From assembly GCA_029866005.1 (NCBI GenBank), contig JARXAE010000004.1, positions 62,001-126,000 of the forward strand: a stretch of 64,000 bases of DNA, in the 5' to 3' direction. This document shows, one piece after another, positions 38,636 to 60,880 of this stretch. Positions within the stretch are counted from its first letter, which is position 1. Every line of letters begins with the position of its first letter. Under the pieces are notes generated by a model that made no database searches, had not been told where the DNA came from, and worked only from the letters and a program-made list of their open reading frames with translations. Source of the stretch: Fimbriimonas sp. (GTDB lineage: Bacteria > Armatimonadota > Fimbriimonadia > Fimbriimonadales > Fimbriimonadaceae). The position numbers and the translations under genes are program-made.

Positions 38636-39706
38636 TGCCGACTATTATAAGTAACTTTGGACCTACAACTCTTAACCCTCAAGATTTCTCGAAGTGAGAA
38701 TGTGCCGGTCCTCCCCACAGTAGTGGTTCAGATTCTCAGGCTGTTTGATGATCCAAATGTCTCGGCACGCAGTTTAGTGCGCATTATCGAGCAAGATGCC
38801 GGCATGTCCGCGAAGGTTTTGAGAGTCTCGGGATCACCAATGTACAGACTTCGCTCTGTCAATACGGTCGACCGGGCCATAAGCATTCTTGGAATGAGTA
38901 CGCTCAGATCGATTGCGATCTCTTTGGCTTACCAACAGATTCTGAATCGCAGGGGTCCGAAGCCTGCATTCGATCAGTTGGCGTTCTGGAGGAACTCACT
39001 GGCTGTTGGGATCGGAGCAAGGGAACTGATGCGCTCTGTCAACGCTGGGCTGGCTGAGGAAATGTACGTTGCCGGCCTGATGCACGGCGTCGGAATTCTT
39101 GCGTTGGATCGGTTTGCTCAGCCCGAACTAAGAAGAGCTATGAAGTCAGCCACTGTAAAGCGGATTCCTCTTCGTGAAGCTGAGATGATGGTGAACGGCT
39201 TTGACCACTGTCAGGTGGGCGGAATCCTTGCGGATAAATGGAATCTTTCTCCGATCGTCGGCAATATCATCAAGTATTACGACACTCCAGACGCGGATAC
39301 CGAAACTCATCAATCGACTCTGGTGGCGGCTGCAGCGAGTTATCTGGCGTACCATTGCGGTTTCCCCCTCGTGCCTGGGCTACCTGGATCAGAGGACGGC
39401 CTTGAACACCTATCAAAACTTGAGCTTGGGCAGGACAAAATTGATTTTGTCGCAACCAAAATCATGGCTGAAGTTGACGCAGCGGACGAAGCCATGGGTT
39501 CCGCCCGAGCCGCTTGAGCGCCCGGGGTTCGCCTCTCACTTTGGTAGGACAAACCGAATGATATCCTGTCTTGTGATGAGCAAGAAGAGCACGAGCATGA
39601 ACGCCATTCCGGCTGTGAGGAATGTGGTCTGCAGCTTGTAGCTCAGCCGTTTACCTCGGTTGAACAGCTCAATTACCGCCAACAGGATCTGGCCGCCGTC
39701 GAGCAT
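38636..39706. repeat. Tandem duplication, unit 2 (HDOD gene plus rseP tail)
   Basis: The downstream unit matches 37503-38570. Its right end lies inside the intact rseP, at GAGCAT 39701-39706, which indicates that this unit has the original rseP context and the other is the inserted copy. Confidence 0.85.
38657..39517 (+). CDS. HDOD domain protein (downstream copy of a tandem duplicate)
   Basis: The TTG at 38657 starts a 286-residue HDOD protein that aligns to the upstream copy without gaps and with most residues identical (SENVPVLPTVVVQILRLFDDPN, GLMHGVGILALDRFAQPEL, DHCQVGGILADKW, same EVDAADEAMGSARAA end). The motif GLMHGVG again lacks the HD Asp. Both copies stay open and have diverged mainly at residues facing outward, so both may be functional. 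It is convergent with rseP, whose stop is 18 bases away. Confidence 0.85.
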   Translation: MDLQLLTLKISRSENVPVLPTVVVQILRLFDDPNVSARSLVRIIEQDAGMSAKVLRVSGSPMYRLRSVNTVDRAISILGMSTLRSIAISLAYQQILNRRGPKPAFDQLAFWRNSLAVGIGARELMRSVNAGLAEEMYVAGLMHGVGILALDRFAQPELRRAMKSATVKRIPLREAEMMVNGFDHCQVGGILADKWNLSPIVGNIIKYYDTPDADTETHQSTLVAAAASYLAYHCGFPLVPGLPGSEDGLEHLSKLELGQDKIDFVATKIMAEVDAADEAMGSARAA

Positions 39707-40654
39707 TCCGATTGGGAGAAGATTGGTGATGCCCAGCGAGATTGAGATCATTCCGCAGATCGTCAGAACGCTGGATAGACCAGCTTCGACTGCCTTGTTG
39801 GTGACCGCCGCCATTCCGACAACCCCCGTCGTTTCTTCAATGATTTTCGCGGGTTGGGTCAATCGATACAGAAGTCGTTGAACGGAGATGATCGGAATCT
39901 CAACCGCTGTGCTAAATGCTTCTCCAATCGGCATTCGCACTTTTTCAGCGCCGAACACGATTCCTAGCATGGGCACCTTCGCCTTTTGCCCTGTAGGGAG
40001 GCCATCACTGTCGAGCAAATCCTGGGGCTCGTCGCTGAGTCTGGTTTTGATGGTGAACTGCAAAGGCGTTCCTAAGCGATCGACTTCGAGGCTGACTGTG
40101 CCACCGGTTGACTTCCGGATTGCCATGGTCGCGGAGAATGGTTCGGTTGTTGGCTCGCCGTTTACCTTAAGAATTCGGTCACCAGGCTTGATTCCAGCTT
40201 CTACTGCCGGATACTTGAGCTTGAGTTGCTCAACCATGTTCGAGGGCTTATCAATTCCAAAGGACGCGACGGTCAAAAAGATCACCAGTACACCGAAGAC
40301 AATGCTGAATAGGGGGCCGGCAAAGAGAACGGCGATTCGTTGAATTGGAGGCTTGCTGTAGAAACCGTGGATGATTTTGGTTTCGCTTCCATCCGGCTGC
40401 GGCTCCATTCCCTCGATTTTGACAAACCCTCCTAAAGGCACCGATCGGACGTTGAAGTCTGTTGTGACCCTATCATCATTGGGCATTGTGGTGAGCTTTC
40501 GCCTCCAAGTTTTCATCTTGGGTCCAAAACCAATCGAGAACTCCGAAACCGCCATTTTGAAATAGCGCGCGGCGAGGTAGTGTCCCCATTCATGCACCGC
40601 GACGAGAATCGCGAACATGACGATAAAAGTGATGATGGAGAGGATGATGGTCAT
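39536..40654 (-). CDS. rseP: RIP metalloprotease RseP (site-2 protease)
   Basis: RseP cleaves membrane-embedded anti-sigma factors and other substrates. The 372-residue protein shows the zinc site H21-E22-x-x-H25 (HEWGH) in the first membrane helix, a PDZ domain at about 120-210 (PAVEAGIKPGDRILKVNGEP), and the second zinc-binding region NLLPIGMLDGGQ in a later membrane helix. The last 60 residues form a membrane segment with LVLFLLITRQD, the part that is duplicated as a fragment at 38401-38570. The start overlaps the end of dxr by 4 bases, so the two are cotranscribed, as in many bacteria. Confidence 0.95.
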   Translation of the reverse strand: MTIILSIITFIVMFAILVAVHEWGHYLAARYFKMAVSEFSIGFGPKMKTWRRKLTTMPNDDRVTTDFNVRSVPLGGFVKIEGMEPQPDGSETKIIHGFYSKPPIQRIAVLFAGPLFSIVFGVLVIFLTVASFGIDKPSNMVEQLKLKYPAVEAGIKPGDRILKVNGEPTTEPFSATMAIRKSTGGTVSLEVDRLGTPLQFTIKTRLSDEPQDLLDSDGLPTGQKAKVPMLGIVFGAEKVRMPIGEAFSTAVEIPIISVQRLLYRLTQPAKIIEETTGVVGMAAVTNKAVEAGLSSVLTICGMISISLGITNLLPIGMLDGGQILLAVIELFNRGKRLSYKLQTTFLTAGMAFMLVLFLLITRQDIIRFVLPK

Positions 40655-51770: not shown

Positions 51771-52652
51771 TTATCGCTTGCGTCGTCTTAGTAACGCGGC
51801 GACTCCCAATCCAACCACTGCCATCGTGCCTGGTTCCGGAACGACTTCAAACGAATACGTCCTAAACTGACCAGCTGCAATCGTCCCGCTTCCAGCACTC
51901 AATCCATTGAGGTTCAGATTATAGGCACCATAGTTCAGCGAGTCGACCCCCGGCAGAGCGAAGCCATCGCCAAAGGTGCTTTGGAAACTCCCAATCACCA
52001 AGACGTATTTGTTATGTGCGAGCCCCGCGGCTGTGATCGAGCTCAGCAAATCGGTGCCGCTATCGTCGTCCTCAAAGAGTTTTGTTCCTGAAGCCGTGTA
52101 GAGCGCTATGTGCGTATCACTGATCCCAGTGCTTCCGTTGGTGTCAAACGTCAACGAGTTTGGGTTGAAGAACTGACCCAAATCAGCAACGTGAGAAATC
52201 GAGTTGCTGTAGTTGAACGAAACGTTACTCCAGCTGGCCTGAATCGTACTTGGAACAAAGCCGTGCTGGAACGCTTCGAAATTCACAGATGCCCCACCTT
52301 GGAACCAGAACAGCCCGTTTGTCGAGGAATTCACATCGACGGGTGCCGTGTAGGAACCATTCCCGGATGGGGTGAGAGAATAGCCAGATCCGACGCCGGT
52401 TCCGGTCACATTCCACAATGAATCACTTTCCCAGGTATCGCCTGCAACGCTCGTCAATCTACCGCTAAAATCGAGTGATGTGAAAATGGTGCTCGGACCC
52501 GAGTATGTGCGAGTGAAGTCACCATTGGTGGGATTCCCCAAGTTTCCGAACGAGTTAAGGGGACCGGTTGCCGCAGCATTAAATTGGGCATTTGCCGCAG
52601 AGGAGAGTAAAGCCACCGTGGCGGCCGAAATAGGTAAGTTGAGCCTCTTCAT
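51771..52652 (-). CDS. PEP-CTERM sorting domain protein
   Basis: The 293-residue protein has a signal peptide (MKRLNLPISAATVALLSSAANAQ), a Ser/Gly/Asn-rich beta body with a DVARS-like bacterial pre-peptidase C-like or lectin-like character, and a C-terminal tripartite sorting signal: PEPGTM, a hydrophobic helix AVVGLGVAALL and a basic tail RRRKR. Such proteins are cleaved and anchored by an exosortase. No exosortase gene is in the window. It is a single-gene unit. Confidence 0.9.
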   Translation of the reverse strand: MKRLNLPISAATVALLSSAANAQFNAAATGPLNSFGNLGNPTNGDFTRTYSGPSTIFTSLDFSGRLTSVAGDTWESDSLWNVTGTGVGSGYSLTPSGNGSYTAPVDVNSSTNGLFWFQGGASVNFEAFQHGFVPSTIQASWSNVSFNYSNSISHVADLGQFFNPNSLTFDTNGSTGISDTHIALYTASGTKLFEDDDSGTDLLSSITAAGLAHNKYVLVIGSFQSTFGDGFALPGVDSLNYGAYNLNLNGLSAGSGTIAAGQFRTYSFEVVPEPGTMAVVGLGVAALLRRRKR

Positions 52653-52694: not shown

Positions 52695-53495
52695 CTACTT
52701 GGGTTGCCGGCGTAGCAATCGCGCCGACTCGCTACCAGGTTTCTGCGCGGCTCGAAGAAGGATGAACTCATCTCCATATTCAACTATCGGCTCCGTCATC
52801 GGAGACATCGAATCCCACGACGCCGCAGCGTACCGATCAATGACTGTGCGAGCCAGCAAAAGCTTGTCCCTCTCGACCGGCAGGGTTGAAAGGTCGGGGA
52901 CTCCTACCTTCTGCAGGCCACGCACGACAAAGGTCAGATCATCTTGCTGGGTCACGATGACATGATCATCGAACGCGGTTGCCTGGTGCTTGCGGTTCAG
53001 AAACTCTTGAAACTCGGTTACTGACCATAGGCGGTCCGCCACCATATCCAGAATTCCCACCGCTCCAACCTGATGCGCCAGTGCACCAGCCACATGAACA
53101 CAGAACTGAAGATGCTTCTTGGAGTCGAGCTTCGATTCGCTTGAATATTGCACTCGAATGGCGCTTCCGGATAGTTCAAATGCATCTCGGTATTCGCTGC
53201 GATTGACAATCTCCGCATTCTTGTTCTTACTCGATAGAATCAGACCGATCTTGAACCGAATATCGGAGAAAAGAAGCCCTTCGGTGGGTCCGATGCCAGG
53301 GCTCTGCATCACCGCCGCCATCGTCTCGGTCAGGTCAGGGAGTTTGGTGTCAGGACTGAGCACCCAATACTCGACGTGAGCCAGGTACTTGCCTTTTTGA
53401 TTATTGAGGTAACGGGCAAGGACAATTCCGAGTGCAACAAAAACTGCGGTGATAAAGAAGCCTGCTGGAGTCAAGGCCCGACACCACTCGTCCAC
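52695..53495 (-). CDS. Hypothetical membrane-anchored protein
   Basis: The 266-residue protein has one N-terminal membrane segment at about residues 10-28 (AGFFITAVFVALGIVLARYL) and a soluble part that I do not recognise. A stretch HLQFCVHVAGALAHQVGAVGILDM (about 130-153) recalls proteins with the DUF4261 fold, but too weakly to assign. The start overlaps the small zinc-ribbon gene by 25 bases, so both are probably in one transcript. Confidence 0.65.
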   Translation of the reverse strand: MDEWCRALTPAGFFITAVFVALGIVLARYLNNQKGKYLAHVEYWVLSPDTKLPDLTETMAAVMQSPGIGPTEGLLFSDIRFKIGLILSSKNKNAEIVNRSEYRDAFELSGSAIRVQYSSESKLDSKKHLQFCVHVAGALAHQVGAVGILDMVADRLWSVTEFQEFLNRKHQATAFDDHVIVTQQDDLTFVVRGLQKVGVPDLSTLPVERDKLLLARTVIDRYAAASWDSMSPMTEPIVEYGDEFILLRAAQKPGSESARLLRRQPK

Positions 53496-53689
53496 CGCAC
53501 CGCCGCCTGAATCTCCGGAGTATCCAGTGCCGAGTAGCAGTACCGGCAGATTCCTGCCTCATTCACATCCGGCCGGCAACAAAGGAAGCAAGAATCCATC
53601 TTGCGCCGAAACATCACCATCTCCCGGTTGCCCAGCGCGTACAGCAACTGATTCCGCGGAATTCCTTCTGGGTTCAGTCGTGTCATCAC
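53471..53689 (-). CDS. Small zinc-ribbon protein
   Basis: The 72-residue protein carries four cysteines as CFLCC and CRYCY, spaced 12 residues apart, which fits a single treble-clef or zinc-ribbon module (residues about 34-52). The rest is not recognisable. It overlaps the start of the following membrane protein gene by 25 bases. Function is unknown; the zinc site is inferred from the cysteine pattern. Confidence 0.6.
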   Translation of the reverse strand: MMTRLNPEGIPRNQLLYALGNREMVMFRRKMDSCFLCCRPDVNEAGICRYCYSALDTPEIQAAVRWTSGVGP

Positions 53690-56147: not shown

Positions 56148-56702
56148 TTATGCCTGTTTCAGGTTGTCCTGTCGGAGCGATTCTCGGATTCGCTTGAGCG
56201 AGCCCTTGACGCTACCGTCAATGACGAAATTGTCGTATGCCACTTTCACACCACCAACGAGGGTGGGATCAACGGCAAATTCTGGTTCGGACTTGCGTCC
56301 GAGTTTTGCGCTTACTTTCTCGACGATCTGCTTCTTCTCGCTATCGGTGAGTTCGATTGCACTGGTCACAATAATGTGAACAATGCCTTCGTCGGCCCGG
56401 CGGAGAGTTGTGAACTCGTCGCTGATCGTAAGAAGCTCTTCTTCGCGCCGCTTTTCGAGCATCAGCTTGACGAGGTTGCTTGTGAGAGCAGTTACCTTTT
56501 CGCCAAGTGCTTTTTCAAAAAGCGAGATCTTCTCATCTCGTCCCCGATTGGGGCTGAGAAGAAAAGCGCGGAGGTCACCGTTATCGGTGAGAGCGGACTG
56601 AATGCCCGCCAGATCTGCGCCGACGACATCGACGGATTTAGCGTTTTTCGCAGCTTCAAATACTGCTTGGGCGTACCGTTTTGCGACGCGATCTCCAGCC
56701 AC
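56148..56702 (-). CDS. atpH: ATP synthase F1 subunit delta
   Basis: Delta (OSCP) links F1 to the peripheral stalk. The 184-residue protein has the usual helical N-terminal domain ([19 protein letters not shown]) and C-terminal domain ([63 protein letters not shown]), with the conserved LVGGV pattern. It lies 1 base from atpF and 5 from atpA. Confidence 0.94.
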
Positions 56703-56703
56703 G

Positions 56704-57306
56704 TTAAGCCTTCACCTCAAGATCGGCGATGAAATCAGCGATCAGCTTTCGGTTAGCTGCGGTGTCCATATTTGCGCCAACGACTTTCTCGGCTGCGGTG
56801 AGCGAGAGGTCGGTAACGTGGGTTCGCAGTTCGCCGAGAACTTTTGCTTTCTCAGATGCGATCTCTTCTTGGGCTTGCTTGACAAGTGCATCGGACTTAG
56901 CCGCTGCCTCTGCCATGAGGCTCTGTCGAAGTGATTGTGCTTCCTTGATCTGAGCGTTGATTTTCTCGCGAGCTTCTGCCTCGGTACTAGCGATTCTTTT
57001 CTCGTAGTCACCCTTCATAGTCGTCATCTCATTTCGGAGAGTTTCGACTTCTGAAAAGGTCGTTTCAAGATTAGTGTTTCGCTCATCAATGGCGGCGGTG
57101 AGGGGCTTCACGAAGAAAGACTCAATGACCGGGAACAGCGCAATAAATACGCCGATCGAGCCAATCGTCTTTCCAAATTCAATCGTGATTGGTTGATGAA
57201 CCGTCAGATTTGCGTTGTTGGCAACGACGCCAAGAACCGCAATGACGAGACCACCAACAATCTTCACGATTGCTGGAATTCCCTTTGATTGAGTGTGTTC
57301 TGCCAT
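56704..57306 (-). CDS. atpF: ATP synthase Fo subunit b
   Basis: Subunit b forms the peripheral stalk. The 200-residue protein has a second hydrophobic segment near the N-terminus (about 12-30, IVGGLVIAVLGVVANNA), a membrane helix at about 47-68 (IGSIGVFIALFPVIESFFV), then a long charged helix with repeated Glu/Lys residues (about 75-190). The extra N-terminal segment may be a signal-like anchor; b subunits usually have one membrane helix. Confidence 0.92.
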   Translation of the reverse strand: MAEHTQSKGIPAIVKIVGGLVIAVLGVVANNANLTVHQPITIEFGKTIGSIGVFIALFPVIESFFVKPLTAAIDERNTNLETTFSEVETLRNEMTTMKGDYEKRIASTEAEAREKINAQIKEAQSLRQSLMAEAAAKSDALVKQAQEEIASEKAKVLGELRTHVTDLSLTAAEKVVGANMDTAANRKLIADFIADLEVKA

Positions 57307-57599: not shown

Positions 57600-58367
57600 T
57601 CAGTGTGCTCCAGCTGCCTCGTGACCATGGTCGTCATGTTCGTGGTGCGTTACAAGTGATATGTAAACGCACGTGAGGAGGCTGAAGATCATGGCTTGTA
57701 CTAAGCAGGTTAAGAGCTTAATGGGTACAAGAAGAGTTCCCGCAGGAACCCAGGACATGTGGAAGACACCACCAACAACCGTGGAAATTGCTTCGGCTGC
57801 TTGGTGACCACCATCAATGTTTCCGAAAACTCGGAGGCTAAGAGACAAATTCTTCATGATCTCGGAGACAAGCTCGATCATGAAGAGCATTCCTGAGATG
57901 AGAACGAGAACTCCGGTCATCTTCGGTCCGGCGAAGTGCTTGAAGTGCCCGAGAACTCCGTTAGACTTGATCCCCTGGTACTGAACGTATCCAATGGAGA
58001 TGAGTGCCATTCCCAAGTTGAAGCTCAGGTCAGCGGTCGGGGCGTGGGTGAAGAAAAGCGAGAAGATGTTGGAAACGAAAATGACCAGCCAGAACGTTGC
58101 AATGAACGGAATGAACTGCCGCCCCTTTGCTCCAATGGTTCCAACGACCATGTTCTCTAGGAAAAGATAAAGCTGCTCAGAGGCGCCGGCAAGATAGCCC
58201 TTAAAGACTCGACCCGTGAAACCTTTCTTCGCGATCGAAAGTAGTGTGAATAGGACAATGAGAACTAGAGCAAGGTAGCCGAAAACATTGACGAAATCTG
58301 CACCGTGGTGCGCTTCGCCACCCTCCGTAGAGGCTATCAGCGTGCTCGATAGATTAAGAATGTCCAT
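57600..58367 (-). CDS. atpB: ATP synthase Fo subunit a
   Basis: Subunit a forms the half-channels for protons. The ATG at 58367 gives a 255-residue protein with several membrane helices. The essential Arg179 is in LSLSLRVFGN, and the C-terminal helix is His-rich (HHEHDDHGHEAAGAH). The start overlaps the end of the upstream atpI-like gene by 14 bases. The longer frame from 58391 is less likely. Confidence 0.93.
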   Translation of the reverse strand: MDILNLSSTLIASTEGGEAHHGADFVNVFGYLALVLIVLFTLLSIAKKGFTGRVFKGYLAGASEQLYLFLENMVVGTIGAKGRQFIPFIATFWLVIFVSNIFSLFFTHAPTADLSFNLGMALISIGYVQYQGIKSNGVLGHFKHFAGPKMTGVLVLISGMLFMIELVSEIMKNLSLSLRVFGNIDGGHQAAEAISTVVGGVFHMSWVPAGTLLVPIKLLTCLVQAMIFSLLTCVYISLVTHHEHDDHGHEAAGAH

Positions 58368-59610: not shown

Positions 59611-60426
59611 ATGATCACAGTGGCAATTTTGGCGATGACGATTCGGCTTTGGGAAGGCGATGCCCCATATGCGACGGGCAAGTGAGAAAACGATGTACCC
59701 ACTCTCACTGCGTTCCTGCCCGAGAAACCCTCGAAGTCTGCAATCGTTATTTGTCCAGGCGGTGCCTATTGGGTACTTGCCGACCACGAAGGGAAGGACT
59801 ATGCAGAGTATCTCGCCATGCATGGTATTGCCGCGTATGTACTTCGCTACCGGCTGGGGCAGTACGGTTACCGACATCCTTCGATGCTCGCTGATGCTCA
59901 ACGGGCGATCCGGAAGGTTCGGTCACTCGGCTACGCCAATGTCGGAATCATGGGTTCATCGGCGGGTGGACACTTGGCGGGCACTGCGAGCGTGCACTCT
60001 GGAGTCGAGGCTTACGCTCCGGGTGATGAGACCGACAACCTGAGCCGTCGTCCCGATTTCGGAATTCTGTGTTATCCGGTGACTTCTTTTGACAAGCCCT
60101 TCGGGCATGACTTTTCGGGCAAGCAACTTCTCGGTGAAAAGCCTGATCCTAAGTTGGTGGAAATGATGAACCTCCCCAAACAGGTCACTAAAGACACCCC
60201 GCCGTGTTTCCTCTGGCATACCCAAGAGGATGACGGAGTTCCACCTCAAAACTCCGAGCTGTTCGCGGCTGCGATGCGAAAGGTAGGCGTTGAGTGCGAG
60301 TACCACGTGTTCGCAAAAGGAAAACACGGAATCGGGCTGACCGATAAAGCTCCGTACAAAAACGCCCACCCGTGGGCGAGCAACCTGATCTTCTGGTTGC
60401 AACAGCACGGATGGGCTCCGAAGTAG
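59611..60426 (+). pseudogene. Alpha/beta-hydrolase (esterase/xylanase-type) interrupted by an in-frame TGA
   Basis: The frame from the ATG at 59611 reads IRLWEGDAPYATGK, then TGA at 59683-59685, then ENDVPTLTAFLPEKPSKS in the same frame to the stop at 60426. Apart from this codon, 271 residues match the esterase/lipase family (acetyl-xylan-esterase-like): oxyanion CPGGAY, nucleophile GSSAGG (S117, with the TGA counted as residue 25), acid HTQEDDGVPPQNS and His KGKHGIGL. The next downstream ATG, at 59818, omits the CPGGAY box. It is therefore a nonsense allele, readthrough gene or sequencing error. The acid/base triad is complete. Confidence 0.8.
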
Positions 60427-60439
60427 GTTCAGTGGCTAG

Positions 60440-60880
60440 TTACTTCTTAACCTTCGTAAAGGTCATGGTGACTGCCTCACCTTTGTGATCCTTTCCGATG
60501 AAGGTCGCGGTATCACCCTCGATCTTTACGGTTCCTGTTGTCGCCTTACCTTTTGCCTCTTCCATTGCTTTCTTTGCCGGCTCAACCATCGGTTTGAAAG
60601 CCGCAGGTATTTGGCTGTCATCAAAAGTCGAGTTCACTGTTGTCATCGAAAGCTCTTCGCCCTTCAGCGTGTAGTTGCCATCAGTTGTGATCGAAACATT
60701 AACTCCACCTTGACCGGCTTTGATGTCCATCTTGAAAGTGTTGGAAGTAAAGTTGGCAGTCGCAGTAGCACCGGGGGGCAGCTTATCATTGGTTACCGTC
60801 CAGTCGCCCGCAAGCGACGGACCGCCACAGCCAAGGAGAGCTAGGGCGAAAAGAGAAGAGGCGGCTAGGATAGGTCGCAT
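60440..60880 (-). CDS. Hypothetical lipoprotein
   Basis: The ATG at 60880 (or 60904) gives about 146 residues with a lipobox LALLGC near residue 18, so it is an anchored lipoprotein. The rest is beta-rich (WTVTNDKLPPGATATANFTSNTFKMDIKAG, GNYTLKGEELSMTTVNS, GTVKIEGDTATFIGKDHKGEAVTMTFTKVKK) and resembles small DUF-type outer lipoproteins with lipocalin-like strands. No exact family is assigned. It is followed by the HAF-repeat gene upstream on the same strand. Confidence 0.8.
   Translation of the reverse strand: MRPILAASSLFALALLGCGGPSLAGDWTVTNDKLPPGATATANFTSNTFKMDIKAGQGGVNVSITTDGNYTLKGEELSMTTVNSTFDDSQIPAAFKPMVEPAKKAMEEAKGKATTGTVKIEGDTATFIGKDHKGEAVTMTFTKVKK

Follow-up and report, generated by a model that had tools for sequence, protein, structure and literature searches.

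The esterase gene at 59611-60426 of the window, the 64,000-nucleotide stretch of Fimbriimonas sp. DNA that was analyzed, is interrupted by an in-frame TGA and probably represents a very young nonsense allele, an ordinary event that would leave the gene either as an incipient pseudogene or as a strain-level polymorphism caught in the assembly. If the stop is real, it is another instance of gene loss caught at the first step, prior to decay. With one stop, intact orthologues and no further decay, the gene resembles recent single-lesion bacterial pseudogenes, among which it would be unremarkable.

The interrupted frame and its family

Exactly one stop, the TGA at 59683-59685, lies between the ATG at 59611 and the TAG at 60426, and the read-through product comprises 271 residues (Table 1). 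Neither translation nor codon alignment with orthologues revealed a frameshift or a second lesion in the frame 59611-60426. The description in the earlier note of a full alpha/beta-hydrolase esterase with a lone lesion, in which the motifs CPGGAY, GSSAGG, QEDDG and KGKHG are all recognizable once the TGA is read through, was thus borne out. Given that intact, collinear orthologues are 85% and 82% identical and that 246 codons 3' of the TGA are open (chance probability of about 6e-5 from those codons alone), the esterase frame is far beyond chance. The gene adjoins the ATP synthase operon, and a promoter scan yielded nothing near it; an alternative in-frame ATG is located at 59635, upstream of the TGA.

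Table 1. Coordinates of the interrupted esterase gene, its motifs and the tRNA-Trp gene of the same genome
Feature	Position	Strand	Evidence
Interrupted esterase frame, 271 codons plus stop	59611..60426	+	Translation with the TGA read through; Pfam BD-FAE and related abhydrolase profiles; intact collinear orthologues in G001 and G018
In-frame TGA, codon 25 (GGA in G001, GGC in G018; family-variable position)	59683..59685	+	Codon alignment, homologue table, protein alignment
Oxyanion motif CPGGAY, residues 48-53	59752..59769	+	Translation, homologue alignment
ORF of 202 aa, the longest from the first canonical start 3' of the TGA, with neither the first core strands nor the oxyanion loop	59818..60426	+	ORF list, predicted structure
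Nucleophile motif GSSAGG, Ser117	59953..59970	+	S117 invariant in alignment
Catalytic Asp207 in QEDDG	60229..60231	+	D207 invariant in alignment
Catalytic His239 in KGKHG	60325..60327	+	H239 nearly invariant in alignment
tRNA-Trp(CCA), the sole one recovered in the own genome (G000)	G000:C10:85851-85926	-	Sole exact match to the core of the tRNA-Trp anticodon arm

In the protein alignment of 23 homologues, P49, G50 and G51 of the oxyanion motif are invariant, as are S117 and D207, H239 is nearly invariant, and P30 is invariant as well. The read-through protein scores 54 bits against the Pfam BD-FAE model (PF20434; cut-off 26.8), so that the alignment and the model jointly place the Ser-Asp-His triad and the oxyanion glycines in a BD-FAE-type hydrolase. 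Alignments to the NCBIfam AxeA1 and PaeX models also span most of the esterase, but the scores fall far below the equivalog cut-offs (approximately 165 versus 550 bits and 162 versus 700 bits). By sequence, therefore, the product is an esterase, a BD-FAE or acetylxylan-esterase-like alpha/beta hydrolase below the AxeA1/PaeX equivalog level, to which no substrate is assigned because of these low scores.

The AlphaFold2 model built from the 23 homologues is confident (pLDDT 90.7, pTM 0.91). Within the PDB set, the top hit by sequence is 6a6o, the solved structure of an acetyl ester-xyloside bifunctional hydrolase from Caldicellulosiruptor lactoaceticus (phmmer E 7.7e-50, residues 12-264), which is also the best fold match (TM 0.86, 37% identity). 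Unlike the esterase gene of the window, the 6a6o gene is uninterrupted, and a likeness in substrate would be a prediction from sequence and model.

Ancestral codon and selection downstream of the stop

The own genome is a 2.8-Mb draft in 38 contigs, and the two nearest genomes compared, G001 (85% identity) and G018 (82%), both carry the collinear, uninterrupted esterase gene with a sense codon at the position of the TGA, as expected for a recent nonsense pseudogene. Given that these codons, GGA and GGC, both encode glycine, the ancestral residue 25 was very probably glycine, with the TGA one G>T change away. The precursors put forward in the earlier note, CGA or TCA, are contradicted by these codons, which point to a G>T transversion. 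Among clearly aligning homologues from farther out, the position is variable (G, T, S, E, A, P and similar), neither Trp nor Cys occurs there, and no relative with an orthologue shares the TGA. The stops in the homologues from G008 and G100 are the normal terminal stops of these genes. Two further, distant esterase homologues are encoded elsewhere in the own genome, one of them with 38% identity over residues 29-156; these may or may not compensate for loss of the esterase.

The test of dN/dS downstream of the TGA that had been suggested in the earlier note detected no relaxation. Pairwise values are 0.051 against G001 and 0.040 against G018, compared with 0.047 for the intact pair G001-G018. 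In a purpose-written branch codon model of six orthologues, the window lineage had an omega of 0.044, compared with 0.060 in the background, a non-significant difference (p = 0.50), and omega = 1 was rejected on the window lineage (p = 6e-4). The likelihood profile gives an upper bound of omega of approximately 0.10 on this lineage and hence, by a rough mixture estimate, an unconstrained share of at most about 5% of the branch; synonymous sites are saturated (dS of approximately 1.8 or more), which makes for a coarse clock and limits dating. These sequence comparisons show strong purifying selection downstream of the TGA. In the absence of relaxation, the stop would therefore have arisen very recently, be polymorphic among strains or reflect a consensus error. 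The lack of decay would be equally expected from a consensus error or from ongoing protein production by readthrough.

Under the favored reading of a recent nonsense mutation, a single G>T change would have turned codon 25 of a vertically inherited esterase gene from GGN into TGA, too recently for further decay to have accumulated. Ribosomes starting at 59611 or at the ATG at 59635 would most likely halt after 24 residues at most and, as no downstream start is expected to yield a complete enzyme, the allele would be functionally null or nearly so. We infer that the organism does carry the T and that useful readthrough is absent. The set of options listed in the earlier note (recent nonsense mutation, readthrough or sequencing error) was sound, with the first of these now favored and programmed readthrough argued against.

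Alternative explanations of the TGA

A consensus or sequencing error, with the organism itself carrying a sense codon and an intact gene, is less likely and ranks second: selection is unrelaxed, a second lesion is absent, one substitution suffices, and the assembly is a draft. Against such an error, the assembly does not appear to be error-ridden. The esterase gene is the one clear split gene in 34 comparable orthologue pairs with G001, covering 104 kb of own sequence, and for 14 of the 15 candidates from a codon-usage scan of approximately 504 kb of the own genome, a longer ORF, nearly always antisense, overlaps in another frame, which leaves the esterase alone and no second clean in-frame-stop gene in the scanned sequence. 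Moreover, bacteria commonly carry natural nonsense alleles.

Leaky decoding of UGA, in which an unpaired-top tRNA-Trp(CCA) lets some ribosomes insert Trp so that a reduced amount of esterase is made, is improbable, although several features of the genome would fit it. In the only tRNA-Trp recovered, the top pair of the anticodon stem (TCGGT/ACCGT), U27:U43, is unpaired, leaving four pairs, and A9 and G24 are kept, as in the 'Blastocrithidia-like' tRNA-Trp(CCA), a 4-bp-stem type reported to give approximately 2.5-fold higher UGA readthrough upon overexpression in E. coli (PMC13092985); unlike what is known under that name, the window genome shows no sign of UGA reassignment or depletion. The base following the TGA is G, which in E. 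coli increases readthrough, with TGA mostly read as Trp (PMC11126739). The variable site is predicted to lie in a loop that precedes the first core strand, where Trp may be tolerated. Against this explanation, G001, G018 and G003 carry an identical tRNA and have no TGA in their esterases, so that the pairing of tRNA and stop is not selected. TGA is not depleted as a stop in comparison with two relatives that have five-pair stems, which indicates that UGA is an ordinary stop here; there is no TGA-specific excess of split genes, and the RNA 3' of the stop folds no better than shuffled sequences (z = -0.49). By analogy, some background leakage to Trp is plausible, and the 4-bp-stem tRNA modestly raises the standing of readthrough. 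The broader proposal that a clade with this tRNA as its sole tRNA-Trp tolerates premature UGA through leaky Trp insertion, so that enzyme is still made from the esterase allele, which thereby avoids immediate decay, is even more doubtful. If the protein is still made, and only then, the finding would matter more, the unusual tRNA-Trp of the clade then providing a natural example of UGA leakiness in an organism that uses the standard code.

As to the distribution of this tRNA, the U27:U43 mismatch is also found in G009, and a five-pair anticodon stem is present in G002, G010 and the majority of the other relatives examined. The clade-specific 'unpinned' tRNA-Trp coexists with the standard code without UGA depletion.

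That the gene is an old pseudogene, or that a shorter enzyme is produced by restart at the ATG at 59818, is highly improbable. The 202-aa ORF that would serve for the restart is present, but it lacks residues 1-69, a segment that in the predicted structure holds the core strands 31-35 and 43-48 together with the oxyanion loop, and it would thus be deprived of the invariant P30, P49, G50 and G51. No working enzyme is expected from this restart because the product would be missing its initial core strands as well as the oxyanion loop; the predicted structure and the alignment agree with the earlier note on the loss of the oxyanion strand. An old pseudogene is rejected given the unrelaxed selection and the single lesion.

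For programmed recoding, be it selenocysteine insertion or conserved readthrough, and for a reassigned genetic code, the probability is next to nil: the sole supporting point, a frame that is open and conserved past the TGA, is set against glycine or other residues, never Cys or Trp, in the relatives, a stop that is not conserved among orthologues, no tRNA-Sec above the Rfam cut-off in the own genome (ordinary tRNAs account for the eight weak matches examined), no Rfam recoding RNA family at the TGA site, the lack of a special RNA fold, a prfB (RF2) gene that scores above its profile cut-off, and the use of TGA as terminator in 129 of 376 sampled own ORFs, approximately one third, with G as the commonest following base. 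The frequency of TGA as a terminator and the presence of prfB lead to rejection of a UGA-reassigned code, and a selenoprotein is disfavored by the lack of tRNA-Sec.

Other frames in and near the window

Several further stop-containing matches were rejected on inspection. Comparison with a 589-aa ORF of G001 placed two in-frame stops in 64008-65774, but the own 517-aa ORF starts at 64224 and the stops are upstream of it; the segment 64008-64223, just outside the window, is probably a differing 5' extension that reflects a misassigned or shifted start, and not a broken gene. The matches at 53260-53688 and 56383-56799 derive solely from G018 ORFs, with no own ORF in frame, and look like shadow frames, the former lying opposite the F-type ATPase-neighbour genes. 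The proteins encoded at 39539-40654, 51774-52652, 57621-58277 and 60443-60880 are just 51-55% identical to their G001 counterparts, compared with over 90% for their highly conserved neighbors.
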